Shown here piece after piece: positions 33,459 to 47,009 of a stretch of DNA of 64,000 nucleotides (its first letter is position 1; every line of letters begins with the position of its first letter). Source of the stretch: an uncultured Spirochaetales bacterium. Its GTDB lineage: Bacteria > Spirochaetota > Spirochaetia > Sphaerochaetales > Sphaerochaetaceae. The position numbers and the translations under genes are program-made. The notes beneath the pieces were generated by a model, which did no database searches, was not told where the DNA came from, and saw only the letters and a list, made by a program, of their open reading frames with translations. The DNA lies in the NCBI GenBank assembly GCA_944392695.1, contig CALXXN010000004.1, positions 62,001 to 126,000 of the forward strand. The letters are read 5' to 3'.

Positions 33459-34484
33459 ATGAAGAAAGCTCTCTCTATCGCAGCTCTCCTCGTCCTCTGC
33501 CTGGCCACTGTCTTTGCAAGTGGCAGCGCTGAGGAAGCGGCCACGGCAGCTTCTGACGAAGGTCAGTACAAGGTCGCCCTGATCATCGAGAACACCATTG
33601 ACGACAGGGGCTGGTGCCAGGCCATGCATGAAGGCATCCTCGGTGCCATGGAGCAGCTGCCTGGGAAGATCCACTACGAGTACTCCGAAAGGATGACGAC
33701 AGTCGACAGCGAGTCGATCGCCCGCCAGTACATCGCAGATGGCTTCGACCTGATCATCGCACATGGTTCCCAGTACAGGAACATGGTCAGTGACCTCTCC
33801 GCCGAGTTCCCAGATGTCTCCTTCGCCTTTGGTACGAGCTCTGACATCATCGGTGACAATGTCTTCACCTACATGCCGGAGAGTGAGGAGACCGGTTACC
33901 TCTCAGGCCTTCTCGCAGGCATGCTGACCAAGACAAACAACATCGGCCTTGTCGGCCCTGTCGACAGTGGTGACGCCGCCCGCTACAACAGGGGCTTCAT
34001 CCTTGGTGTCGAGGCTGTCAATCCTGATGCCACGGTCAATGTCGCCTACACGGGTTCCTTCTCTGACTATGTCCGCTCTGGTGAGCTGGCCACGACCCAG
34101 ATCCTGGCTGGTGCTGATGTCCTGACAGGTTCTTCACAGCAGGCAATCGGTGCCCTCCGCGCCTGTGCTGAGTACGAGGATGTCCTCTGGCTCGGTCAGG
34201 ACCTCGCCCAGCTCGACACACCTGAGGGCCAGGCCAAGTGCGTCGCAGCCTCTGCCTACAATTACACGGCTGTCGTCGTCGGCCTGATCGAGAGTCTTGA
34301 TGCAGGTGTCACTGGTGGTGTCTGCATCCCGATGAACTTCAACAACGATGGTTTCATCTTCGACTACAACTCCGCACTCGCGGATGTCGTGACAGATGAG
34401 ATGCGCCAGACCGTCGATGAGGCGATTGCAAGCTTCCGTGCCTCAGCTGGAGTGCTTTCCAACTGGGCGGATGTCCAGATCTGA
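33459..34484 (+). CDS. BMP family substrate-binding protein (nucleoside-type)
   Basis: Periplasmic binding protein of the Bmp/PnrA/Med family, which usually binds purine nucleosides. A signal peptide (MKKALSIAALLVLCLATVFA) is followed by SGSAEEAATAA; a small-residue segment of this kind without a lipobox Cys is common in spirochaete binding proteins. Family motifs are IENTIDDRGWCQAMHEGI, DLIIAHGSQYRNMV, FGTSSDIIGDNVFTYMPESEE and GLVGPVDSGDAARYNRGFILG. 341 residues from ATG 33459. There is an A9 run but no SD immediately upstream. ABC genes follow. Confidence 0.88.
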   Translation: MKKALSIAALLVLCLATVFASGSAEEAATAASDEGQYKVALIIENTIDDRGWCQAMHEGILGAMEQLPGKIHYEYSERMTTVDSESIARQYIADGFDLIIAHGSQYRNMVSDLSAEFPDVSFAFGTSSDIIGDNVFTYMPESEETGYLSGLLAGMLTKTNNIGLVGPVDSGDAARYNRGFILGVEAVNPDATVNVAYTGSFSDYVRSGELATTQILAGADVLTGSSQQAIGALRACAEYEDVLWLGQDLAQLDTPEGQAKCVAASAYNYTAVVVGLIESLDAGVTGGVCIPMNFNNDGFIFDYNSALADVVTDEMRQTVDEAIASFRASAGVLSNWADVQI

Positions 34485-34499
34485 TTCCACTAGATGCGT

Positions 34500-34518
34500 G
34501 GGGCGCGTTCTGCGCCCC
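34500..34518 (+). other. Intercistronic GC hairpin
   Basis: GGGGCGC-GTTCT-GCGCCCC directly after the binding-protein stop and not followed by Ts. Such a hairpin could protect the upstream message and help keep the binding protein in excess over the membrane components. Confidence 0.55.
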
Positions 34519-34540
34519 CGCGTCGTATCCAGGGGGTACG

Positions 34541-36070
34541 ATGTCAGAAAAGATCACATCCTTGAGGATGGAACACATAACAAAGCGCTTCCCAGGCGTC
34601 CTGGCAGGTGATGACATCTCACTTGAGGTCGGGGAGGGCGAGATCCTGGCCCTGGTGGGTGAGAACGGTGCCGGGAAGACGACGCTTATGAATATCCTGA
34701 TGGGTATCTACCAGCCGGATGAGGGCAGGATATTCATAAACGGCAATGAAGTGCGCTTCCGCGGTCCGGAGGATGCCTTCAAGGTGGGCCTTGGCATGGT
34801 CCACCAGCAGTACATGCTGGTAGGGGACATGACTGTCACTGAGAACGTGGCCCTGGGTTACAAGCAGGCCTGGAAGCCGATGAAGCTGGACCTTGACGAG
34901 GTGAGGCGCCGGGTCGTGGAGGTCAGCGACCGCCATGGGCTCGCAGTCAACCCTGATGCTTATATCTGGCAGCTTTCGGTTGGTGAGCAGCAGCGTGTCG
35001 AATTGGTCAAGACGCTCTGCCTTGGAGCCCGCTTCCTGATCCTGGACGAGCCAACGAGCGCACTGACACCTCAGGAGACGGAGGAGCTTGTCGATCTGTT
35101 GAAGAAGATGAAGGAGGAGCTTTCAATCATCTTCATCTCCCACAAGCTCAACGAGGTCAAGGCCGTCTCTGACAAGATCGCCATCCTCCGTCATGGACGC
35201 ATCGTCTTCACTGGTGATACTGCAGACCACTCATCCAGTTCGATCGCGGCACTGATGACAGGCCATGAGATCGAGCTTCCAGAAAACAAGGAAGCAGACA
35301 TGCATGGTGGCTTGGCGCTCTCGATCAAGGACCTCTGCGTCCGCTCGGACCGTGGCAACCTCGCCCTCGACCACTTCAGCCTTGATATAAGGGAAGGGGA
35401 GGTCGTCGGACTCGCCGGTGTATCCGGCAATGGCCAGAGGGAGCTTGCCGAGGCGGTCAACGGACTGCGCGCCGTCGAGTCTGGATCGATCAGCTTCTTT
35501 GGTGAGGAATGCGCAGGACGGGGCGCCCACCAGATGATCGAGGCCGGCATGGGTTACATCCCGGAAGAGCGCAACATCGAAGGCATAGTCCCCGCTTTCT
35601 CAATCAAGGAGAACCTGATCTTGAAGGACAGCGAGAACCCTCGTTTCTCGAAACACCACCTCATGAAACGCAAGGCGGTCATGGAGAATGCCGAACGTCT
35701 GAGGAAGGACTTCGACATACGCTGCCCTGGCGTGGATACTGCGGCAGGCAGCCTTTCCGGTGGCAATATCCAGAAGGTCATCCTGGCACGGGAGCTGACC
35801 CGTTCCCCGCGCTTCCTTGTCGCTGTCTATCCGACACGTGGCCTCGACATGGGGGCGGTCGAATCAATCCACAAGGAGCTTCTTGCCAAGCGTAAGGAAG
35901 GCATAGGCATACTCCTGATCAGCGAGGAGCTTGATGAGATCATGAACCTTTCAGACAGGATCGCGGTCATCTACAAGGGACGTGTGCAATGTGTCATGAA
36001 ACATGGTGAAGCTGACAAGAGGCGTCTGGGCATCCACATGGCCGGACTCGAGGAGGGCTCTGATGAATAG
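34541..36070 (+). CDS. ABC transporter ATP-binding protein (double ABC, nucleoside/sugar type)
   Basis: 509 residues with two ABC domains. Domain 1: Walker A LVGENGAGKTTLM, signature QLSVGEQQRVEL, Walker B FLILDEPTSAL. Domain 2: degenerate Walker A VAGVSGNGQREL-type (GLAGVSGNGQ), signature SLSGGNIQKVIL and a Walker B replaced by VAVYPTRGLD, as is normal for the second half of RbsA-like ATPases. Energises the two permeases that follow. AGGGGG lies 5 nt before the ATG. The stop overlaps the first permease start. Confidence 0.93.
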   Translation: MSEKITSLRMEHITKRFPGVLAGDDISLEVGEGEILALVGENGAGKTTLMNILMGIYQPDEGRIFINGNEVRFRGPEDAFKVGLGMVHQQYMLVGDMTVTENVALGYKQAWKPMKLDLDEVRRRVVEVSDRHGLAVNPDAYIWQLSVGEQQRVELVKTLCLGARFLILDEPTSALTPQETEELVDLLKKMKEELSIIFISHKLNEVKAVSDKIAILRHGRIVFTGDTADHSSSSIAALMTGHEIELPENKEADMHGGLALSIKDLCVRSDRGNLALDHFSLDIREGEVVGLAGVSGNGQRELAEAVNGLRAVESGSISFFGEECAGRGAHQMIEAGMGYIPEERNIEGIVPAFSIKENLILKDSENPRFSKHHLMKRKAVMENAERLRKDFDIRCPGVDTAAGSLSGGNIQKVILARELTRSPRFLVAVYPTRGLDMGAVESIHKELLAKRKEGIGILLISEELDEIMNLSDRIAVIYKGRVQCVMKHGEADKRRLGIHMAGLEEGSDE

Positions 36071-37151
36071 GAACTTCAAACTTGTCTACAAGAGCCTGGT
36101 CATATTGGCAGCCATCATCGTCACACTGGCCATCAGCTCCCTGATCCTGGTCGTCCTCGGTGCCGACATCCTGCGCACCTTCGAGACGATCATCATAACA
36201 CCGCTCACAAGGGTTGGTCATATCACAGAGGTCTTCGTGCGTGCCGTGCCGCTGTGCATCATCGCTCTTGGTGTCGCAGTCGCCTACCGCTCGGGTATTG
36301 TCAACATCGGTGCGGAAGGCCAGATGGCCATGGGCGTCCTTGGCTTCACCGCCACCGCGCTGGCACTTCCCGACCTCCCAAAGCCCATCCTTCTTCCGAT
36401 GGCCTTGATCGCAGGTGTGCTCTCTGGTGGCTTGTGGGGCTTCATCCCTGGCATCCTCAAGTCAAAACTCGAGGTCTCCGAGCTCCTGTCGACCGTCATG
36501 CTCAACTACATCGCTGCGCAGTTCTACTCCTTCTGCCTCCGTGTCCCGATGATGGACCCTGCTGAGGCGCTTTCTGGAGCAGGCACCCCGCAATCAGCCC
36601 GCCTGACGACGAACATCGAGATCGGACGTATCACCGGCCGCCTCCATTATGGGCTCTTCATCGCCTTGGCGCTGGCCGTGATTGTCTACCTCTTCCTGTG
36701 GAAGACGAGTTATGGCTACAAGATGCGTGCCAGTGGCTCGCAACCCAGGGCCGCCCGCTATGGAGGCATCGCGGTCTCCCGCTATGTCACCCTGGCCATG
36801 GTGATCAGTGGTGCCTTCGCAGGTCTTGCTGGTGGCATCGAGATCGCCGCCGTGCACAGGCGGGCGATCGAGGGTGTGACGAACAACTACGGCTTCTCCG
36901 CCGTCGTCGTAGCGCTCTTCGGCATGCTGCATCCCTTCGGCATCGTTCCAGCGAGCTTCTTCTTCGCACTCCTGATCTATGGATCGACCCTGACACCAAG
37001 GGCTGTTGGCGTTCCAGCCAACATCGTCGATGTCATGCAGGGCCTGATCATCATGACGATAGTCACAACCCAGATGATATTGCAGAACGACTACCTGATG
37101 GACCGTGTCTGGCACTGGTGGTGTTCGAAACGCAAGGCAAAGGAGGCTTGA
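36063..37151 (+). CDS. ABC transporter permease 1 (BMP/nucleoside type)
   Basis: 362-residue inner-membrane protein, about ten transmembrane helices. The conserved loop YRSGIVNIGAEGQMAMGVLG and the later EAA-like SGAFAGLAGGIEIAAVHRR are typical of YufP-like nucleoside permeases. ATG 36063 overlaps the ATPase stop by 8 nt and has GAGGAGGG 6 nt upstream. An earlier in-frame start at 36003 would add 20 polar residues inside the ATPase gene and is rejected. Confidence 0.9.
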   Translation: MNRNFKLVYKSLVILAAIIVTLAISSLILVVLGADILRTFETIIITPLTRVGHITEVFVRAVPLCIIALGVAVAYRSGIVNIGAEGQMAMGVLGFTATALALPDLPKPILLPMALIAGVLSGGLWGFIPGILKSKLEVSELLSTVMLNYIAAQFYSFCLRVPMMDPAEALSGAGTPQSARLTTNIEIGRITGRLHYGLFIALALAVIVYLFLWKTSYGYKMRASGSQPRAARYGGIAVSRYVTLAMVISGAFAGLAGGIEIAAVHRRAIEGVTNNYGFSAVVVALFGMLHPFGIVPASFFFALLIYGSTLTPRAVGVPANIVDVMQGLIIMTIVTTQMILQNDYLMDRVWHWWCSKRKAKEA

Positions 37152-37152
37152 G

Positions 37153-38097
37153 ATGGACATCTTGATCAACATCCTATCGATGACAGTCCCCTTCTCGGTG
37201 GCCCTCCTCCTGGCGAGCCTCGGTGAGATGTTCAACCAGCGCAGTGGTGTCTTCAACCTCGGTTGCGAGGGCATCATGGCTGTGGGTGCCTTCATCGGCA
37301 TGCTCGTGCCATTCTCCGTCGGACAGGGTGGGGCGGTTGCAGGGGGCTGGAACTGGCTTGGACTCCTCCTGGCCTGTGTGGCAGGCGCCCTGCTCGGACT
37401 TCTCTTCGGCCTGGTCGTCGTCACCTTCCGCGCCCCTCAGGGTATCGCAGGTATTGGCCTGCAGATGTTCGGCGTCGGTGTCGCTGGAACGCTCTTCCGC
37501 CACTTTGTAGGTGGCACCCAGTCGATTCCAGGCATGTCCACGACTCCAATCCCACTGCTGTCCAAGATTCCCGTGATCGGACGGATCTTCTTCTCCCATA
37601 GCATCATCGTCTACCTGGCCTTCCTTTTCGTACCGCTGGCCTGGTACATCCTATTCAAGACACCTTGGGGGCTCAGGGTGCGTGCGGTCGGCACACATCC
37701 CCGTGCCGCTGACAGCATGGGCATCAATGTCAACAGGACGCGTTATGAGGCGCTCGCTGTCGGAGGTGCCCTGGCTGGCCTCGCCGGAGCCTACCTCTCG
37801 GTCTGCCAGGTCAAGATGTTCTCCGATGAGCTGATCGCAGGTCGTGGCTTCATCGCAGTAGCCTTGGTCTACTTTGGTCATTGGAATCCGGTGAAGATCA
37901 TGCTTGGCGCCCTCCTGTTCTCCTTTGCACAGACGATCCAGTACAACGTCCAGGGGCTTGGCATGAACGTACCCTATGAGTTCTTCGTCATGCTGCCCTA
38001 TGTCGTGGTCGTGGTCGTCCTGGCCTTCACAAGCCGCAATCAGAAGACAGGCCCCGCCGCACTGGGCAAGCCTTTCAACAGGGAGATGCGTACATGA
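37153..38097 (+). CDS. ABC transporter permease 2 (BMP/nucleoside type)
   Basis: 314 residues, mostly hydrophobic. The signature FNQRSGVFNLGCEGIMAVGAFIG matches the YufQ-type second permease, and ALAGLAGAYLSV is its coupling-helix region. It starts 1 nt after the first permease stop with AAGGAGG upstream. Its stop overlaps the oxidoreductase start (ATGA). Confidence 0.9.
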   Translation: MDILINILSMTVPFSVALLLASLGEMFNQRSGVFNLGCEGIMAVGAFIGMLVPFSVGQGGAVAGGWNWLGLLLACVAGALLGLLFGLVVVTFRAPQGIAGIGLQMFGVGVAGTLFRHFVGGTQSIPGMSTTPIPLLSKIPVIGRIFFSHSIIVYLAFLFVPLAWYILFKTPWGLRVRAVGTHPRAADSMGINVNRTRYEALAVGGALAGLAGAYLSVCQVKMFSDELIAGRGFIAVALVYFGHWNPVKIMLGALLFSFAQTIQYNVQGLGMNVPYEFFVMLPYVVVVVVLAFTSRNQKTGPAALGKPFNREMRT

Positions 38098-39107
38098 GCT
38101 ATTCGGTTGGAATAGTAGGAACGGGGGCCATAGCCGCTGTGCATGCGGCTGCGGCCCGTGAAAGTGGCAAGACCTTCTTGAAGGCGGTCTACAACCACAA
38201 TGAGGCAAAGGGCCGCGCCTTTGCCAGCAGCTGGGGCGTGGACTACTGCGCCACGCTTGATGAGCTGTGCTCGTCTGTCGACATCGTCTGTGTGACGACA
38301 CCCTCTGGCGCCCATCTAGACCCTGTCATGTGCGCCATCGCCCATGGGGTCAAGGCGGTCTTCGTCGAGAAGCCAATCGAGATCACCCCTGGGCGTTGTG
38401 ACCAGATGATCAAGGCCGCACGTGATGCAGGTGTCGTCATCGCAGGTGTCTTCCAGTCACGCTTCTATCCAGCGGCGAAGCTGGTCAAGCAGGCGATTGA
38501 TGAAGGACGCTTTGGACGTGTGACCCTGCTGGAGGCCCAGTTCAAGTGGTACCGCAGCCAGGAATACTATTCGGACAGCCCTTGGCATGGCACCAAGGCC
38601 CTCGATGGGGGTGGGGTCTTGATGAACCAGGGCATACATGCGATCGACCTCCTGAGGTGGTTCGGAGGACCCGTGGAATCCCTGTCCTCATTCTGCTCCG
38701 CCTTGGGACATGAAGGCATCGAAGTCGAGGATACCGCTGTCGCATCATTGCGCTTTGAATCAGGGGCGCTTGGCGTGATCCAGGGGACCACCGCCTCCTG
38801 GCCTGGCTTCAAGAAGCGCATCGAGGTCTGTGGCACCCGAGGTTCAGCGATCCTCGAGGAGGATGCCCTCCTTGCCTGGGAGTTCCAGGACGCCCGTCCT
38901 GAGGATGAGGAGGTCAGGAAGCGCTTCCAGCCCTCCAGCGGACAGGGTGGGGCTGCCGACCCGATGGCGATCTCCTCCTTCGGCCACATCGCTGCGATGA
39001 AGGACCTGGCTGACGCCTTGGACGAGGGCAGGGAGCCCTTCATCAATGGCGAGGAGGCGGCCAAGGCCGTCGAGCTTGTCGACAGCATCTACAAGGCCGC
39101 CCGATGA
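38094..39107 (+). CDS. Gfo/Idh/MocA family oxidoreductase
   Basis: NAD(P)-dependent sugar/polyol oxidoreductase family, 337 residues. The Rossmann motif is VGIVGTGAIAAVHA at residues 5-18, the family EKP appears in VFVEKPIEI, and the catalytic-region motif is GGGVLMNQGIHAIDLLRWFGG. It is the last gene of the ABC transporter operon (4-nt overlap), which suggests that the imported compound has a sugar part that this enzyme oxidises or epimerises. Substrate not predictable. Confidence 0.88.
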   Translation: MSYSVGIVGTGAIAAVHAAAARESGKTFLKAVYNHNEAKGRAFASSWGVDYCATLDELCSSVDIVCVTTPSGAHLDPVMCAIAHGVKAVFVEKPIEITPGRCDQMIKAARDAGVVIAGVFQSRFYPAAKLVKQAIDEGRFGRVTLLEAQFKWYRSQEYYSDSPWHGTKALDGGGVLMNQGIHAIDLLRWFGGPVESLSSFCSALGHEGIEVEDTAVASLRFESGALGVIQGTTASWPGFKKRIEVCGTRGSAILEEDALLAWEFQDARPEDEEVRKRFQPSSGQGGAADPMAISSFGHIAAMKDLADALDEGREPFINGEEAAKAVELVDSIYKAAR

Positions 39108-39461: not shown

Positions 39462-40796
39462 TTACTCCGCAGTTGCCTCTGCCTCAGCTGTAGTATCGAC
39501 AATGCCATTCAGCGTGATGTCGAAGACGAGCAGGGAGTTGGGCCCGATTGAACCAGCCCCATCCTCACCATAACCCAGCGAGGGGTGGATGTAGGCGATG
39601 ACCTCACCACCGGCCTGGATCTGCTGGACTGCTTCGGCGAAACCAGGGATCAGGCCTGAGAGTGAGAACTCGATGTTGTCATTCGACTCGATCAGGTTGC
39701 CATCGATGTCACGCAGTGTGTAGTTGACGTTGACCGTGTCCTCGGCTGTAGGCGTGTCACCATCGCCCTGGCTGATGACCTCGTACTGGAGGCCGCTGTC
39801 GGTGGTGACGATGCCCTCTGCTGTGGCGTTCTCCTCGAGGAAGGCCTCGGCACGGGCGAGGTTGTCAGCGGCGAGCTGGGCGAGCGCCTCCTCATACTGC
39901 TGGGAGAGCATGTCGACATAGTCGAGGCTGACCTGGGCACGCTCCTCTCCTGTCAGCAGGGGCTCGAGGCCGAAGATGGCGGTAAGCGCGCCTTCGACAT
40001 AGCTTTCCCCATCGATTGACAGGCCATAGTAGTAATCCTGGAAGGCGTTGACGAAACCATAAGCGTAGCTGAAGCGCTCGGAGAGGTCGTGGCACTCTGT
40101 GATCGCCATGATCTCATCTATGCTGTGCGGGGCTTCACCCGTGGTCTCTGCCACGCCTGGCGTGTAGACCGTGTTGATGTACTCATCGACGTGGCCCGAC
40201 ATCTCCTCGATTGGGATCAGGAGCTCCGTGGCCCCGTTCCAGAAGTCGAGTGTGCCACGTGCGAAGTAGGAGCCACGGAAGATCAGGCCCTGGCTGGTGT
40301 AGCTTGAGAGCGTGTCATAAGCATAGGCATAGCTGAAGCGCCCTGTCAGGTCGTCAGACAGCGTGATGTCCCACAGCGTCGTCTGGGTGTCAGGCGAGGT
40401 GATTATTCCAAGGTCCTGCACAGGGGCGAAGCTGATCGCATCACCGTAGGCGCCGAGGTTGTAGGCGAGGGTGATGTCGCGGATCCCTGTCGCCCACATC
40501 TGGGGTGGTATGCTCATGGTCATGATGCCACTGTCCTTGACTGCGAGCACAGAGCCTTCCTGGACCTGGTCGAAGGGGACGGAGTGCGTGGTCTGCTCTT
40601 CGCTTGCGCGGTAGATCACGAGGCTGCCATCCATCTTCTGGGCCGTGTACTTGTAGACTCCGTCCTCCTCCAGTTCGACCTGGATGACGCGGATCACTGT
40701 ATCATCACTGGTGACTTCGCTCACGCCATTGGCGGAGAGCGTCGCTGCGACGAGGACCAGCAAAAGGGCTGCAAGGCTGATTGTCTTCTTTCTCAT
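39462..40796 (-). CDS. Exported FKBP-type peptidyl-prolyl isomerase
   Basis: 444 residues. Signal peptide MRKKTISLAALLLVLVAATLSANG, then a region of about 310 residues with repeated FSYAYAYDTL/FSYAYGFVNA blocks, a helical linker, and a C-terminal FKBP domain (SGLQYEVISQGDGDTP, VNVNYTLRDIDGNLIESN, LIPGFAEAVQQIQAGG, YIHPSLGYGEDGAG, LVFDITL). Predicted envelope folding catalyst. ATG 40796 is preferred over a frame extension of 12 residues because the signal peptide starts there and AAAGGA is 6 nt upstream. The duplicated FSYAY segments suggest an internal repeat resembling FkpA-type N-domains. Confidence 0.85.
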   Translation of the reverse strand: MRKKTISLAALLLVLVAATLSANGVSEVTSDDTVIRVIQVELEEDGVYKYTAQKMDGSLVIYRASEEQTTHSVPFDQVQEGSVLAVKDSGIMTMSIPPQMWATGIRDITLAYNLGAYGDAISFAPVQDLGIITSPDTQTTLWDITLSDDLTGRFSYAYAYDTLSSYTSQGLIFRGSYFARGTLDFWNGATELLIPIEEMSGHVDEYINTVYTPGVAETTGEAPHSIDEIMAITECHDLSERFSYAYGFVNAFQDYYYGLSIDGESYVEGALTAIFGLEPLLTGEERAQVSLDYVDMLSQQYEEALAQLAADNLARAEAFLEENATAEGIVTTDSGLQYEVISQGDGDTPTAEDTVNVNYTLRDIDGNLIESNDNIEFSLSGLIPGFAEAVQQIQAGGEVIAYIHPSLGYGEDGAGSIGPNSLLVFDITLNGIVDTTAEAEATAE

Positions 40797-40969
40797 TTCA
40801 AATCCTTTTTCCGTGCCCGATGGGGCACACACGTCAAGGTAGCCAGCCCGGAGGCCGGCGTCAAGGCGCTGTTGTCCTGTGTAATGGGGGTTGGACCAGT
40901 GATGGCCTTTCTGTGGAAGGTCTTAGTGTTTTTTTGTATTTGCTGTGTATTTCATCTTCCGTCCACTTC

Positions 40970-40978
40970 TGCTAGTCT
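40970..40978 (+). promoter_or_regulatory. Extended -10 promoter of the deaminase operon
   Basis: TGCTAGTCT is followed by a leader of about 20 nt with AAGGAGG before the ATG at 41006. A CTCCT anti-SD motif (40980-40984) lies just before the expected start. Confidence 0.55.
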
Positions 40979-41005
40979 TCTCCTGTCAAGGCAAGGAGGC
41001 TGGCG

Positions 41006-41512
41006 ATGGGACAGGTAATCGAAGACAGGATCACGGAGCGCGACATGGAGTACCTGGAGCAGTGCGCCGGGCTTGCCCTGTTGTCGAGGAAGGAGGGCAA
41101 CCATCCCTTCGCGGCCATGCTGGTCGATGAGGAGGGTTGTGTCCTCCTGAGCCAGACGAACGCCTTCAAGGAAGGTGGCTCGAGTTACCACGCCGAGACC
41201 CTGCTCACACTGAAAGCCGCGGCGAAGTGGCCTCCTGAGAAGCTTGCCAAGTGCACGCTCTACACGAACTTCGAACCCTGTGTCATGTGCACTGGGGCGG
41301 TCTATTGGGCAGGCATAGGACGCATCGTCTATGGGGCATCGGAGAAGGACCTGCTGGCCCTCACCGGGGACAATGAGGAGAATCCGACCTTCTCGCTCTC
41401 CTGCCGTGATGTGATAAAAGCAGGTCAGAAGGATGTCGTCATCGCAGGTCCGCTCGGGGACTGTCCACTTAAGGAGGGTATCCTCGCCGCCCATGAGGGC
41501 TTCTGGTCGTGA
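41006..41512 (+). CDS. Cytidine/deoxycytidylate deaminase-fold nucleoside or base deaminase
   Basis: 168 residues. The zinc site is SSYHAETLLTL (HAE) and NFEPCVMCTGAVYWAGIGRIVYG (PCxxC), as in guanine deaminase, TadA and cytosine deaminase. The Gly/Ala-rich region and the C-terminal LKEGILAAHEGFW resemble guanine/nucleobase deaminases more than TadA, but specificity is not certain. It is the first gene of a tightly overlapped three-gene operon with an MtnA-like isomerase and an MTA-phosphorylase-like enzyme, so a purine-containing nucleoside or base is the likely substrate. Confidence 0.8.
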   Translation: MGQVIEDRITERDMEYLEQCAGLALLSRKEGNHPFAAMLVDEEGCVLLSQTNAFKEGGSSYHAETLLTLKAAAKWPPEKLAKCTLYTNFEPCVMCTGAVYWAGIGRIVYGASEKDLLALTGDNEENPTFSLSCRDVIKAGQKDVVIAGPLGDCPLKEGILAAHEGFWS

Positions 41513-42486
41513 GAAACGACAAGCGTCTTCCTTATTCTTTGCAGCATGATGTGATCGCACGCCTTGATGGTACGGTGCTCCTGGTTGGTGACAGGAGACG
41601 TCTTCCCTTCGAGCGTGTGCAGCTGCCTTGCGTTGATGCTTATGAGGCCGCAGCCGCCATAAGAGGCATGGTCACACAGGGAGGAGGGCCTTTGGAGGTA
41701 TCGCTATGGGCCCTGGTGCAGACTGCGAGGATCAATGGCTGTGACATCGATGAGATGCGCCGGGCTGCCGATGCCTTGTCCTCAGCACGCCCTACGAACA
41801 CGGCTGTGCGCAAGGAGCTTGAGTACATCCTGCCCTTGATCGAGGACTTCCAGCCTTCGTCCTTCGCATCTGATGTCGAGGACCTGGTCATGACCCGCCT
41901 GGACTATTACGATGCCTGCTACGATGCGATGGCCCATCATGGGGCGGCCTTGATTGAAGATGGTGATGGCCTGTTGACGACCTGCTTCCCTGAGCATTCA
42001 TTCTTCCTTTCCTTGTACCATGCGAGGGAGGAGGGCAAGACCTTCAAGGTCTATGCGATGGAGACCCGTCCCTGGCTGCAGGGAGCCCATCTTACCGCAC
42101 CTGGTCTTGCTGAGCTGGGTTATGACAGCTACCTCATCACTGACAACATGGCACCCGCCCTGGTCTCGATGGGCCTTGTGACGAAGTACATGAGTGCAAG
42201 CGACAGGGCTGCAGCCTCCCACTGGGTCATAAACAAGCTTGGGACATTGTCTGCCGCCATGGCCTGTCATGAGAAGGGTGTTCCTTACTACGCCTTCAGC
42301 CTGGCTCCTGACATGACAGGGCCAGACCCCGCTTGGTCTGATGTGGAGATCAGGGATCCTTCGGAGGTCCTCTCCTGCCAGGGCATGAAGACCACATCTG
42401 ATTCCGTCAGGGGTTTCTACCCCTGCTTCGACCTAGTACCGCCACGCTATGTGACGGCTGTTGTGACAAAGGAGGGCCTGCTGTGA
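41509..42486 (+). CDS. Divergent MtnA / eIF2B-like sugar-phosphate isomerase
   Basis: 325 residues. Motifs align with methylthioribose-1-phosphate isomerase but are altered: TQGGGPLEV in place of RGAPAIGI, SSARPTNTAV, LLTTCFPEH in place of LTHCNAG (the catalytic Cys is kept), METRPWLQGAHLTAPGL (conserved), LITDNMAPALVS (catalytic Asp kept) and VINKLGT. The chemistry is therefore probably a ribose-1-phosphate-type aldose/ketose isomerisation on a related substrate. GTG 41509 overlaps the deaminase stop and its own end overlaps the phosphorylase by 4 nt. Confidence 0.75.
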   Translation: MRNDKRLPYSLQHDVIARLDGTVLLVGDRRRLPFERVQLPCVDAYEAAAAIRGMVTQGGGPLEVSLWALVQTARINGCDIDEMRRAADALSSARPTNTAVRKELEYILPLIEDFQPSSFASDVEDLVMTRLDYYDACYDAMAHHGAALIEDGDGLLTTCFPEHSFFLSLYHAREEGKTFKVYAMETRPWLQGAHLTAPGLAELGYDSYLITDNMAPALVSMGLVTKYMSASDRAAASHWVINKLGTLSAAMACHEKGVPYYAFSLAPDMTGPDPAWSDVEIRDPSEVLSCQGMKTTSDSVRGFYPCFDLVPPRYVTAVVTKEGLL

Positions 42487-43196
42487 AGGCCGTGATTGCT
42501 GGAACCGGTGTCGACCGCCTGCTTTGTGGGCTCACCCGTGCATCGGTCGATACGAAATACTCGATGGGGGAGGTCGAGTACTTCATCAAGGACGGTATTG
42601 TCATACTCCCCCGCCATAAGGCCGACCACTCGGTCTCGCCAAGCCTGATCAACTACAAGGCGAACATCTGGGCACTCAAGGAGCTCGGGGTCACTGATGT
42701 CATCGGACTTTATGCTGTCGGATCGATCACCAGCCGCCTGACACCAGGTTCCTTCGGCCTTGTCGCCGACTACATCGATTTCTCCGGGCGCGGGCTGACC
42801 TTCTTCGATGGGCTTGACAACCCACTGCGCCATGCAGGCATGGTGAATATCTTCGACCCGGCCTTGCAGCAGCGTTTCTCAAGCGCCGCCTTCAAGCGTG
42901 GTGAGAAGAGGATCGGCATAGGCAATGTCTATGTGACGACAGCAGGACCCAGGCTTGAGACCGCGGCTGAGATCCGCGCCTTCCGCAGCCTTGGTGCTGA
43001 CATTGTCGGCATGACGCTTGCAAGCGAGGCCAGCCTGCTCGCGGAGATCGGAATGCGTTTCTGCCCGGTCGCCTTCTCAATCAACTGGGCGGCAGGCCTG
43101 GACGAGGAAGGGGTCTCCTTCCTTGAGGACGAGTCGGTCGAGCGCCTCTCAAGGAAGCTCCTGGAGATCTCGATCGACGCGCTCTCATCCCTCTAG
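42483..43196 (+). CDS. MTA/purine nucleoside phosphorylase family protein
   Basis: 237 residues, PNP/MTAP family II. Motifs: PRHKADHSVSPSLINYKANIWALKELGV, LYAVGSI, TTAGPRLETAAEIRAFRSLGADIVGMTLASEASLLAE. Expected to split a purine nucleoside such as MTA or methylthioinosine into base and (thio)ribose-1-phosphate, which would be the substrate of the preceding MtnA-like enzyme. The canonical N-terminal GIIGGSG loop appears as AVIAGTGVD. GTG start overlapping the upstream stop. The 3' end overlaps convergent potD by 4 nt. Confidence 0.82.
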   Translation: MKAVIAGTGVDRLLCGLTRASVDTKYSMGEVEYFIKDGIVILPRHKADHSVSPSLINYKANIWALKELGVTDVIGLYAVGSITSRLTPGSFGLVADYIDFSGRGLTFFDGLDNPLRHAGMVNIFDPALQQRFSSAAFKRGEKRIGIGNVYVTTAGPRLETAAEIRAFRSLGADIVGMTLASEASLLAEIGMRFCPVAFSINWAAGLDEEGVSFLEDESVERLSRKLLEISIDALSSL

Positions 43197-44230
43197 TCCA
43201 TATAGCGGATTGGCTCCCAGAGCTTGTTGTACATGTCGAGGTCCTCTCCAAGGTCGGCAATCACCTCATAGCCTTCAAGGTCCTCTGCCGTATAGAGGGG
43301 TGTGGTCTCCATGTAGGCTGCTGCTGCTGTGTTCGTCGTCGGTGGGAAGCTGAACTCGTCAAGGAAGATGGCGTAGTTCTCCGGCTCATGTATGAAGTTG
43401 ATGAACTGGTGGGCCAGCTCCTTCTCCGGTGCGTCCTTCAGGATGACCATGTTGTCGATGTACATCGACCCACCTGTCTCTGGAAGGAAGAAGTCGACCT
43501 TCTCCAGCTCCTCGGCGCTCATCTCCGCGATGATGTTCTCCGCATAGCAGTGCACGACGGCGAACTCACCACGGGCGAAGGACTTCGCGAAGCTCTCTGC
43601 ATCGAACTTCACGATATTTGGCTTCCACTCATCCGCCACCAGCCTGGCCGCTTCCTGCACCTCGTCAGGGGAGGTGCTGTTGTTCGAGTAGCCCAGTGTC
43701 TTCAAGGCATCCCCCATGACCTCCCTCATGTCATCAAGGAGTGTCATGCGCCCTGCAAGGCGTTCATCAGCGAAGATCATCCAGCTGCGCTCGTAGTCTG
43801 GAGGCGCGAGGGTGGTGTTGACTGCGATGCCAGCGGCCCCCATGAAGTAGGGGACGCTGTACTCCATGCCAGGGTCATAGGTCGCGACCTGTTTCACGAT
43901 GTCTGGGATGTACTGGAGGTTTGGTATCATGGCATGGTCGATTGGTGCGAGCATGCCGAGCTTGATCATGATGCTCGTGTAGTCGGCAGAGGGGAACACG
44001 ATGTCATAACCACGTCCTCCACCGGCCTGTAGTTTTGCGAACATCTCCTCGTTGGAGGAGAAGTAGTCGATCACTACATCGCAATCGTATTCCTCCTCGA
44101 AGGCCGTGATGACCTCATCAGGCATGTAGTAGGTCCAGTTGTAGATGTGCAGCGTCCTGGTCCCATCACCTCCACAGGAGGAGAGGAGGGTGAGTGCTGC
44201 TGCCAATACGAGTGAGAGGATTCTTGTCAT
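43193..44230 (-). CDS. potD: PotD, spermidine/putrescine-binding lipoprotein
   Basis: 345 residues with a lipobox (LTLLSSC). The mature start is followed by LHIYNWTYYMPDEVITAFEEEY, the PotD/PotF hallmark, and then GYDIVFPSADYTSIMI, YSVPYFMGAAGIAVN and AYMETTPLY. It captures polyamines for the PotABC importer. It lies 10 nt downstream of potC and is the last gene of potABCD. Which polyamine is bound cannot be told from the sequence. Confidence 0.92.
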   Translation of the reverse strand: MTRILSLVLAAALTLLSSCGGDGTRTLHIYNWTYYMPDEVITAFEEEYDCDVVIDYFSSNEEMFAKLQAGGGRGYDIVFPSADYTSIMIKLGMLAPIDHAMIPNLQYIPDIVKQVATYDPGMEYSVPYFMGAAGIAVNTTLAPPDYERSWMIFADERLAGRMTLLDDMREVMGDALKTLGYSNNSTSPDEVQEAARLVADEWKPNIVKFDAESFAKSFARGEFAVVHCYAENIIAEMSAEELEKVDFFLPETGGSMYIDNMVILKDAPEKELAHQFINFIHEPENYAIFLDEFSFPPTTNTAAAAYMETTPLYTAEDLEGYEVIADLGEDLDMYNKLWEPIRYMD

Positions 44231-44240
44231 GTACGACTCC

Positions 44241-45029
44241 TTAGGCTGAGGCCGCGAAGGACTTCAGGAAACGGCGGAAGATGAAGGCCAGGGCCATGCT
44301 GGCAAGGATCAGTATGAGGGAGAGCGCGTTGATCACAGGGCTCACCCCATAGCGGATGGAAGAGTAGACATAGAGTGGCAGTGTGGCGCTTCCCGGACCT
44401 GAGACGAAGAAGGTGATCACGAAGTCCTCTATGCTCATCGTGATGGCCATCAGGAAGCCGGACAGGACACCTGGCATGATGGAGGGGACCACGACGCGTA
44501 GCATGGCGCCCTTCCTGTCCTCACCGAGGTCCCGGGCCGCCTCTATTGTCGAGAAGTCGAACTCATCGAGCCTTGAGTCGACCAGGAGGTAGGTGAAGGG
44601 GAGGTTGAATGTCGTGTGGGCCGCATAAATCGTGAACATGCCAAGTGGTAGGTTGATGCTTGAGAAGAAGATCAGCATCGAGATGCCGATGATCACATCA
44701 GGCAGGATCATTGGCAGGTAGGTCGCCACCTTGATGTAGCCAGAGAGTTTGAACGACCACCACTTCAAGCCTATCGCGGCAGCCGATCCGATCACTGTGG
44801 CTGTAAGCGATGAGGTGAGTGCTATGATGATGCTGTTCCAGAAGGCCCTCCACAGGTCATGTGATGAGGTGAAGAGTTCTTCGTACCACTGCAGGGAGAA
44901 GCCCTGCCAGGTCATGCCGTGTCCGCTGTTGAACGAATAGGCGGCGACGACGATCAGTGGCATGAACAGGAAAAGCATGACGAAGAAGAGGCAGAGCTGG
45001 GAGAAGCGGGGTGCGTGGACCTTCCTCAT
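44241..45029 (-). CDS. potC: PotC, polyamine ABC transporter permease
   Basis: 262-residue membrane protein, six predicted helices, with the EAA loop EAARDLGEDRKGAMLRVVVPSIMPG that contacts PotA. ATG 45029 overlaps the potB stop (ATGA). The frame stays open far upstream through potB, but that part is a shadow with no membrane or permease signature. Confidence 0.93.
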   Translation of the reverse strand: MRKVHAPRFSQLCLFFVMLFLFMPLIVVAAYSFNSGHGMTWQGFSLQWYEELFTSSHDLWRAFWNSIIIALTSSLTATVIGSAAAIGLKWWSFKLSGYIKVATYLPMILPDVIIGISMLIFFSSINLPLGMFTIYAAHTTFNLPFTYLLVDSRLDEFDFSTIEAARDLGEDRKGAMLRVVVPSIMPGVLSGFLMAITMSIEDFVITFFVSGPGSATLPLYVYSSIRYGVSPVINALSLILILASMALAFIFRRFLKSFAASA

Positions 45030-45886
45030 GTCCTCACCTCCTTGGACTTCTTGTCCTTCCTCCCGCCTCGGAGCACTGTGAGGACGCCAATCAATGATAC
45101 CAGGGTGAGTATGACTGAGAAAGCGCTTGCAAGTGGCCAGTTGCGTGTCTTCTGGACTTGGTCGACGATGATGTTGCCCACCATGGTGCTGCCCATGCCT
45201 CCGACGAGGAGTGGTACGGTGTAAGCACCGAAGACCGGGATGGCGGTGAAGACCAGTGCTGTCGTGATACCACTGCGTACCGATGGGAGCATGATGCGCA
45301 CCAAGGCGCCAAGCTTGGATGAACCAAGGTCGCGTGCCGCATCGACAAGGGTGAAGTCGAAGCGGTCGAAGGCGGTGAAGAGGGGGAGTATGGCGAAGGG
45401 CAGGTACATGTAGACCAGCACGAGGATGACTGCGAAGAGGTTGTAGATCAGGTGCAGCGGTTCCTTGATGATGCCAAGCGCCAGGAGGATGTTGTTGACC
45501 AGCCCCTCTGTGGAGAGGAGGTTGATCCAGGCGTAGATCCGGATCAGGCTGCTCGTCCAGAAGGGTATGATCGTCAGGAAGAGGAAGAGCGTCTGGTGGC
45601 GGGAGCGTGCGATCGCATAGGCCGTGGGCAAGGCGAGGGCGAGGCAGGTCAGTGTGGCGAGGATGCTGGTCCAGAGGGTGCGCAGTGTGACTGCGATGAA
45701 GTCCGGGTCCAGGACCTGGCGGTATGCGTCGAAGGAGGGCTCCCATTCGACACCGCCGTAGAGCCCCTTCTTGAGGAAGGAGTATGTGACGATGATCAGC
45801 AATGGCACGGCGAAGAAGAGCGTGACCCAGAGGCCCATCGGGGCGGCGAGCATGATACCTGCCTTGTCCTTCCTAGGTTTCCTCAT
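45026..45886 (-). CDS. potB: PotB, polyamine ABC transporter permease
   Basis: 286 residues, six helices, EAA loop DAARDLGSSKLGALVRIMLPSVRSG. ATG 45886 lies inside the end of potA (14-nt overlap) with GAGGAG upstream. Pairs with PotC in the membrane. Confidence 0.93.
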   Translation of the reverse strand: MRKPRKDKAGIMLAAPMGLWVTLFFAVPLLIIVTYSFLKKGLYGGVEWEPSFDAYRQVLDPDFIAVTLRTLWTSILATLTCLALALPTAYAIARSRHQTLFLFLTIIPFWTSSLIRIYAWINLLSTEGLVNNILLALGIIKEPLHLIYNLFAVILVLVYMYLPFAILPLFTAFDRFDFTLVDAARDLGSSKLGALVRIMLPSVRSGITTALVFTAIPVFGAYTVPLLVGGMGSTMVGNIIVDQVQKTRNWPLASAFSVILTLVSLIGVLTVLRGGRKDKKSKEVRT

Positions 45887-47009
45887 GCCACTCCTCCTTG
45901 ACTAGGTAGCCGTCGGCAGGACGCCAGATGACAGAGACCCTGTCCTTCCATTCGATCCCAGGACCTTCCTCAAGGTAGGTCGTATGACTCTTCAGCACCC
46001 GGATCGTGGCGCCTTCATCTGTCTTCACATAGAACTTGCTCTGGTAGCCTGCGTAGACAGGTTCATCCACAATGCCATGGAAACATCCTGGCCCCAGGTC
46101 GACATCCCCTGCCACGATGCGCACCTTCTCAGGCCTGATGCTGAAGTAGAGTCGGCGTCCGTCTTCCACAGGGCCCCAGTCCGTCACCTCGAGTGTGCGT
46201 CCCAGGGCGGGTACGTCAACAGTGATGATCCATTCATCATCCTCCTCATCCCAGCGGCTGGACAGTGCGGTGCAGGGGAAGATGTTGCCTTCTCCTATGA
46301 AGGAAGCGGTGAAGAGCGTGCTTGGTGATTCGTAAATCTCATAGGGCGTCCCTGCCTGCAACAGCCGGCCTTCATTGAAGATCGCCATATGGTCGGAGAC
46401 CGAGAGCGCCTCACCTTGGTCATGGGTGACATAGATGAAGGTGATCCCGACCTTGTCATGGATCTCATCGAGTTCCACAAGGAGGCTCTGTCTGAGCTTC
46501 GCATCCAATGCGGACAGTGGTTCGTCCAAGAGCAGGACATCTGGCTCACAGGCCAGGGCGCGGGCGATCGCCACACGTTGTTTCTGGCCTCCTGAGAGCT
46601 GGCCAGGCTTCTTGTTGTCATGACCTGTGAGCTCTACGAAGCGTATGAGCTCGTCGACACGTTCCTCACGCTCCTCCTTGCCCAGGCCCTTCCGCTTCAG
46701 CGGGAAGGCTATGTTCCCCCTGACCGAGAGGTGGGGGAAGAGGGCGAAGTTCTGGAAGACCATGTTGCAGGGCCTCTTCTCAGGCGGCAGCCGCAGGACC
46801 GAGGTCCCATCGAAGAGCACCTCTCCTTGGTCGGGTTCCTCGAAGCCTGCGATGATCCTCAAGAGCGTCGTCTTGCCACAACCCGAAGGACCCAGCAGCG
46901 AGAAGAACTCCCCTGGGGCGATGTCGAGGCTGACATCATCAAGCGCCTTGAAAGAACCGAAGCTTTTTGTGATGTGTTGTATTGAGATGGCACTGCCCTT
47001 GCCCTGCAA
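45873..47009 (-). CDS. potA: PotA, polyamine ABC transporter ATPase
   Basis: 378 residues. Walker A LLGPSGCGKTTLL, signature QLSGGQKQRVAIARA, Walker B VLLLDEPLSALD, H-loop YVTHDQGEAL, and a C-terminal TOBE regulatory domain (SIRPEKVRIV region). Starts at TTG 47009 with GGAGG about 9 nt upstream; no ATG precedes the first conserved strand. First gene of the pot operon; promoter TGTTACACT at 47035-47043. Confidence 0.94.
   Translation of the reverse strand: MQGKGSAISIQHITKSFGSFKALDDVSLDIAPGEFFSLLGPSGCGKTTLLRIIAGFEEPDQGEVLFDGTSVLRLPPEKRPCNMVFQNFALFPHLSVRGNIAFPLKRKGLGKEEREERVDELIRFVELTGHDNKKPGQLSGGQKQRVAIARALACEPDVLLLDEPLSALDAKLRQSLLVELDEIHDKVGITFIYVTHDQGEALSVSDHMAIFNEGRLLQAGTPYEIYESPSTLFTASFIGEGNIFPCTALSSRWDEEDDEWIITVDVPALGRTLEVTDWGPVEDGRRLYFSIRPEKVRIVAGDVDLGPGCFHGIVDEPVYAGYQSKFYVKTDEGATIRVLKSHTTYLEEGPGIEWKDRVSVIWRPADGYLVKEEWHEET

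Follow-up and report, generated by a model that had tools for sequence, protein, structure and literature searches.

A conserved trio of deaminase, MtnA-like isomerase and phosphorylase genes in Sphaerochaetaceae as a possible upper part of kinase-free purine-nucleoside breakdown

Three overlapping genes lie on the forward strand of the analysed window, a 64,000-nucleotide stretch on contig C4 of the genome of an uncultured Spirochaetales bacterium (2.3 Mb in 39 contigs, 96.5% complete). The first (41006..41512) encodes a 168-aa, Msd-like deaminase of the CDA fold, with HAE at 41189-41197 and PCVMC at 41276-41290; the second (41509..42486) encodes a 325-aa MtnA-like isomerase of a clade here called group A, with TQGGG starting at 41674, Cys159 at 41983-41985, Asp232 at 42202-42204 and Asn242-Lys243 at 42232-42237; and the third (42483..43196) encodes a 237-aa MTAP/MTIP-like phosphorylase, with the base-site residue Asn201 at 43083-43085. 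Both junctions are four-base GTGA stop/start overlaps, read directly at 41509..41512 (deaminase/isomerase) and 42483..42486 (isomerase/phosphorylase), and a ribosome-binding-site-like AAGGAGG (40994..41000, forward strand) stands just 5′ of the deaminase ATG; no sigma-70-type promoter match was found in 40700-43400. The three-gene operon with GTGA overlaps described in an initial annotation was thereby confirmed in coordinates, frames and overlaps, and the Pfam families of its products are far from chance, with E-values of 3.4e-18 for PF00383 (deaminase), 1.4e-35 for PF01008 (isomerase) and 1.6e-25 for PF01048 (phosphorylase).

At the level of superfamilies the assignments are clear: the deaminase scores 65.8 bits against PF00383 (cut-off 25) and carries the HAE and PCxxC zinc site, the isomerase 123.3 bits against PF01008, the IF-2B/MtnA superfamily (cut-off 22.4), and the phosphorylase 90.3 bits against PF01048. 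None of the three proteins reaches an NCBIfam equivalog cut-off. The isomerase falls below all those for MtnA and ribose-1,5-bisphosphate (R15P) isomerase, with 128.4 bits against TIGR00512 for MtnA (cut-off 279) and 106.7 bits against TIGR00511 for R15P isomerase (cut-off 314.1), and the best-scoring models for the phosphorylase, MTAP TIGR01694 and MTIP PRK09136, give 158.9 and 153.2 bits against cut-offs of 274.85 and 223.

Upstream stands a divergent FKBP-type prolyl isomerase gene (39462..40832, reverse strand), a conserved neighbour that is not thought to be part of the pathway. Behind the trio, the genes of the PotD, PotC, PotB and PotA spermidine/putrescine importer (43193..47009, reverse strand; best match of PotD, PRK09501) are placed tail-to-tail with it, an arrangement on the opposite strand that recurs in many genera. 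The claim that polyamine genes flank the trio accordingly holds for one side only, the upstream neighbour being the FKBP gene, and the polyamine/MTA setting drawn from it was not borne out: the search for spermidine synthase SpeE gave no hit in any of the 139 family genomes, which, together with the Pot genes lying on the other strand, makes MTA from spermidine synthesis an unlikely substrate, and polyamine-derived MTA was rejected as the nucleoside source. Farther upstream, at 33459-39107 of the window, genes for a BMP-type receptor, an ATPase, two permeases and a Gfo/Idh oxidoreductase were seen; the ATPase and permeases match putative B6 transporter models with scores below the cut-offs, and this transporter set is near the trio in the same genus only.

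The conservation of the trio was followed in a family set of 139 genomes, 120 of which gave MtnA-family matches, and 78 of about 91 trio-type genomes were read, with two duplicate loci (L015, L026) removed before counting. Synteny was counted by tblastn, because simple ORF calling overlooked some deaminase genes where the GC content is high. Among the sequences read, the trio-type isomerases carry TQGGG and CF[AP]E and are without RGAPAIG and NxGALATG. Of 76 testable loci, 75 have the phosphorylase gene directly 3′ of the isomerase gene, and 58 of 77 have the deaminase gene directly 5′ of it, so the co-occurrence elsewhere that had been put forward as a test of the operon was observed. For a second set, a single-sequence contig scan found no relatives and an alignment scan gave 128; in the best 80 of these, whose nearest named members are Bullifex porci, Candidatus Aphodenecus and uncultured Spirochaetales, the counts were 76/78 for the phosphorylase and 45/76 for the deaminase, in a collection that shares assemblies with the 139 genomes and is not independent of them. 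At ten checked loci out of the 19/77 group-A loci that miss the deaminase gene, an FKBP gene is close by in eight (gap 86-549 bases) and two are without one; with the FKBP gene so near in eight of the ten, the absence looks real, and the deaminase appears dispensable. In two loci (L048, L050), a run of symporter-, epimerase- and amidohydrolase-like genes, assigned by eye, precedes the group-A and phosphorylase genes on the same strand, with no CDA deaminase.

The isomerase has the fold of MtnA, its predicted model (pLDDT 93.1) aligning with T. maritima MtnA 1t9k at TM 0.84. As in canonical MtnA, the catalytic Cys and Asp, the Asn-Lys pair, Arg94 and Gln191 are kept, and C159, D232, N242, K243, R94 and Q191 are invariant in 46/46 group-A sequences. 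Unlike canonical MtnA, group A has TQGGGP in place of VRGAPAIG and CF[AP]E[HT] in place of HCNxGALATG; the RGAPAIG motif and the HCN[AT]G loop are replaced, with a four-residue deletion, in 80 group-A rows. The initial description of a divergent MtnA-like protein with retained catalytic residues and changed substrate motifs is supported by these data. The loop after Cys159, four residues shorter than in MtnA, has the length seen in the R15P isomerases of T. kodakarensis and P. horikoshii, which belong to the same superfamily. In the part of the R15P-isomerase account that lists ligands (PMC5789824), the 1-phosphate is held by Arg22, Arg65, Gln166 and Lys215, the sugar by Asp204, Asn214 and Lys215, and the 5-phosphate by Ser137, Lys240 and backbone amides. 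Aligned with these positions, group A keeps the sugar residues, including Asn242, and three of the four side chains that bind the 1-phosphate (R94, Q191, K243), whereas the ligand Arg22 is replaced by Gln57 in 46/46 sequences, Ser137 by Ala/Pro161, and Lys138 by Glu162, which is itself invariant (46/46) and followed by His or Thr at residue 163. Such residues would fit catalysis on an aldose 1-phosphate whose C5 group is probably neither a phosphate nor held in the manner of MtnA.

A 56-row tree gives support of 100/99 to group A, whose 27 rows include Chloroflexota, a Desulfuromonadales MAG and a Verrucomicrobiota MAG, and the same support to group B with its 12 rows; A and B join at 99/97, and the two sequences of group D fall just outside A+B. 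A long branch separates all three groups from canonical MtnA. The reference for R15P isomerase has a long branch of its own, which leaves its exact place unsure. Judged by sequence, the MtnA-like trio protein is not MtnA and belongs to a separate clade, sister to group B. That group A might be catalytically dead or act on some other sugar phosphate, the trio being a regulatory or detoxification unit, is suggested by the swap of a 1-phosphate ligand from Arg to Gln and by the eIF2B subunits of the same superfamily, which are described as being without the 1-phosphate ligands in the passage of PMC5789824 that treats them. We consider this very unlikely, as it sits badly with the six invariant active-site residues and with a phosphorylase gene that is nearly always adjacent.

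The phosphorylase carries Asn201 in 36/36 and Ala203 in 33/36 sequences, the Asn-x-Ala arrangement of a 6-oxopurine site; the same positions are Asp220/Asp222 in human MTAP and Asn/Ala in P. aeruginosa MTIP (3ozb), and Asn at position 201 is common to PNPs too. The site therefore predicts 6-oxopurine nucleosides as substrates, and with them a deaminase acting upstream. Residue 216, which may face the 5′ group, is Asp in 22/36 and Glu in 7/36 sequences, at a point where the alignment to human MTAP is insecure.

In the deaminase, H62, A63, E64, P91, C92, C95, H163 and W167 are invariant in 37/37 sequences. Its predicted model (pLDDT 93.6) is nearest in fold to Msd (Msmeg3575), a CDA-superfamily member, with Z about 25 and 32% identity, followed by guanosine deaminase, TadA and guanine deaminase at Z about 18-19. 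The aligned motif of Msd is HPE in place of HAE, and the trio deaminase is further set apart from Msd by its place in a nucleoside cassette. Only three PF00383 genes were found in the 96.5% complete host genome, a dCMP-deaminase-like gene, a HAD-cytidine deaminase fusion and the trio deaminase, and none of the three is a TadA-scoring gene. The fusion, on contig C1 (L268:757-1890), joins a HAD-type phosphatase to a cytidine deaminase that scores 119.7 bits against TIGR01354, over the cut-off of 113.65. With no other candidate found, the trio deaminase could be the TadA of the cell, a tRNA wobble deaminase unrelated to the other two genes; this is highly improbable given 49.8 bits against TadA NF008113 (cut-off 150), a fold nearer to Msd (Z 25) than to TadA (about 18.5), and the absence of the gene from 19/77 group-A loci.

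The same structural neighbours bear on a reading in which guanosine or a modified purine nucleoside is cleaved first and the free base is deaminated afterwards, for example guanine to xanthine. Msd, the nearest solved relative, has a structure with the free bases 5-azacytosine and ammeline, the guanosine and guanine deaminases come next, level with TadA, a dispensable last step would suit the loci that lack the deaminase, and Asn201 suits guanosine equally. We nevertheless hold such base-level deamination to be improbable in view of the distant cassettes, in which a deaminase from a family that includes nucleoside deaminases appears to take the same role.

These cassettes, in which group A is again combined with a phosphorylase, are found in Anaerolineae and in other spirochaetes, and 21 such loci were hand-picked from the best 80 of 128 relatives by their lack of Sphaerochaetaceae neighbours. 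ECF ATPase, ECF T component and QueT-family S component genes are present in 15 loci each, an amidohydrolase deaminase in 14, and a class II aldolase and an RpiR regulator in eight each. The best-scoring models for the deaminase of the Anaerolineae cassette are TRZ/ATZ and 5′-deoxyadenosine deaminase. One locus (L197) has a classical PNP, non-adjacent, as its phosphorylase and an aldolase gene on the opposite strand. Genes resembling methionine gamma-lyase or cystathionine gamma-synthase, assigned by eye, stand beside the group-A cassette at L192:8836-10038 and L197:10161-11348, a hint of sulfur-containing substrates there. When an amidohydrolase was counted only on the same strand and within 6 kb, under thresholds stricter than those of the 21-locus count, 46 of the best 80 of 128 loci had the CDA deaminase only, 13 the amidohydrolase only, 21 neither and none both (Fisher p 3e-6, confounded by phylogeny). 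As the amidohydrolase family includes nucleoside deaminases, this mutual exclusion suggests one shared role.

Among 20 group-B loci, a class II aldolase was found in 10, a PNP in eight, a BMP-type receptor in seven and an amidohydrolase in six, with the PNPs of two loci over the general PNP cut-off; nine of the 20 had none of these four in the stretch read. The MtnA-like proteins of the two group-D loci (L092, L103) have the motifs IQGAPP and TICFAG, and their genes adjoin QueT, ECF and MTAP-like genes, in a third variant of the cassette.

In the host genome, a canonical MtnA (408.6 bits against TIGR00512) is encoded on the same contig as the trio, a gene unnoticed in the initial annotation, directly after an MTA/5′-deoxyadenosine-deaminase-like amidohydrolase gene (C4:9391-12027). 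Such an amidohydrolase neighbour was found at 7/11 canonical MtnA loci read, with no phosphorylase gene seen at those seven. The genome also encodes an adenosine deaminase, a PNP and a uridine phosphorylase, and three class II aldolase-family proteins, one AraD-like, one RhaD-like and one of 208 aa at C20 that matches no family above cut-off. The phosphopentomutase DeoB was not found in it and is over cut-off in 3/139 family genomes; MtnK, whose absence had been noted near the trio, was found nowhere in the genome; no MTA/SAH nucleosidase was detected at E 1e-15; and neither an aldolase nor an importer adjoins the trio.

Against this background, the strongest rival reads the trio as a version of the DHAP shunt that includes deamination, wherein 5′-deoxyadenosine or MTA is deaminated and group A is a diverged MtnA with unchanged substrate. 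The best scores of the phosphorylase with MTAP and MTIP, those of the Anaerolineae deaminase with TRZ/ATZ and 5′-deoxyadenosine deaminase, the lack of a detected MTA/SAH nucleosidase, and the DHAP-shunt chemistry described for MtnA, DrdI and class II aldolases in the relevant parts of PMC6079011, PMC10986504 and PMC6302742 all speak for it. However, the canonical MtnA and its amidohydrolase deaminase could serve such salvage in the same genome, group A is a separate long-branch clade with an altered C5-side loop, SpeE was detected in none of the 139 family genomes, and MTA/SAH nucleosidase is over cut-off in 38/139 family genomes, several of which carry the trio; on balance we judge this rival somewhat unlikely. 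A link between the trio and loss of the nucleosidase was dropped, as the 38 genomes include ones with and without the trio and no clear pattern was seen by eye.

We propose instead, with about an even chance of being right, that the trio constitutes the upper part of a kinase-free route of purine-nucleoside breakdown, and from the observed gene order, its conservation, the clade and the residues we infer every reaction of it. First, the CDA-fold deaminase would yield a 6-oxopurine nucleoside, doing the job of the MtaD/DadD-type amidohydrolase in the Anaerolineae cassette. Second, the MTIP-like phosphorylase would release the 6-oxopurine base and a (5-substituted) ribose 1-phosphate, which the group-A enzyme could then turn into ribulose 1-phosphate via its conserved Cys and Asp. 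Finally, a class II aldolase whose gene lies in another part of the genome may give DHAP and an aldehyde. The sequence of deamination, phosphorolysis and isomerization suggested initially is thus backed, as to order, by the synteny, the Asn/Ala base site and the second kind of deaminase in distant cassettes, its activities being predicted ones; and for the other exit that the product was said to need, the class II aldolase of 8/21 distant loci is a candidate, with none beside the trio here. The pathway is also favoured by the importer and aldolase genes of the distant cassettes, by the mutual exclusion of the two kinds of deaminase, and by the PNP, class II aldolase, amidohydrolase and BMP-type importer genes beside part of sister group B. 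The absence of an adjoining aldolase or importer, the C20 aldolase with its lack of a family match above cut-off, the dispensability of the deaminase and the free-base structures of Msd count against the proposed pathway, as does the replacement of the ligand Arg22 by Gln57.

As to the sugar, we lean slightly towards ribose 1-phosphate, followed by 5-deoxy- or methylthioribose 1-phosphate; that group A acts on plain ribose 1-phosphate, and would hence be a ribose-1-phosphate isomerase, is a tentative reading that we place below an even chance. With DeoB missing, ribose 1-phosphate lacks the exit it usually takes, which favours ribose, and in the same direction count the short loop of R15P-isomerase length with its conserved Glu162, unlike MtnA, and the canonical MtnA already present beside a deaminase. 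On the other hand, the MTAP-like character of the phosphorylase speaks against ribose, and the adenosine deaminase and PNP of the genome argue against ribose nucleosides as the only substrate of the trio.

The known routes that come closest include the DHAP shunt (PMC6079011, PMC10986504) and the MTI route reviewed in PMC6302742, as far as the portions consulted describe them. The DHAP shunt and 5-deoxyribose disposal (MtnN-MtnK-MtnA-Ald2; DrdKIA) share an MtnA-type isomerase with the trio and a class II aldolase with related loci, but in the trio a deaminase and a phosphorylase come first, no aldolase gene is adjacent, and the genome is without a detected MtnK. With the MTA deaminase and MTI phosphorylase of P. 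aeruginosa the trio shares deamination before phosphorolysis and the Asn/Ala base site; the P. aeruginosa deaminase is an amidohydrolase, whereas that of the trio has the CDA fold, and the trio phosphorylase is under the MTIP cut-off. In the haloarchaeal non-carboxylating pentose bisphosphate pathway, as outlined in part of PMC9700705, guanosine is converted via ribose 1-phosphate and ribulose 1-phosphate into DHAP and glycolaldehyde by a FucA-type aldolase, and three enzymes, R1P kinase, R15P isomerase and RuBP phosphatase, lead to ribulose 1-phosphate. The group-A cassette showed no R1P kinase, and a search of CC-licensed PMC papers turned up none that describes a ribose-1-phosphate isomerase.

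Taken further, groups A and B may both be ribose-1-phosphate isomerases that, with an aldolase, lead purine nucleosides without a kinase to DHAP and glycolaldehyde in bacteria lacking DeoB, the CDA protein having replaced the amidohydrolase deaminase in Sphaerochaetaceae, a proposal that we likewise regard as possible though short of probable. The subfamily is close enough to MtnA to bear its name, yet it branches as a clade of its own and differs in the active-site loops, and its cassette offers a cleanly testable case of an apparent deaminase-fold swap. If this proposal is true, one isomerase would replace three steps of the haloarchaeal pathway in a short route, and the ribose-1-phosphate isomerases would close a gap in the use of nucleoside ribose by anaerobes without phosphopentomutase.
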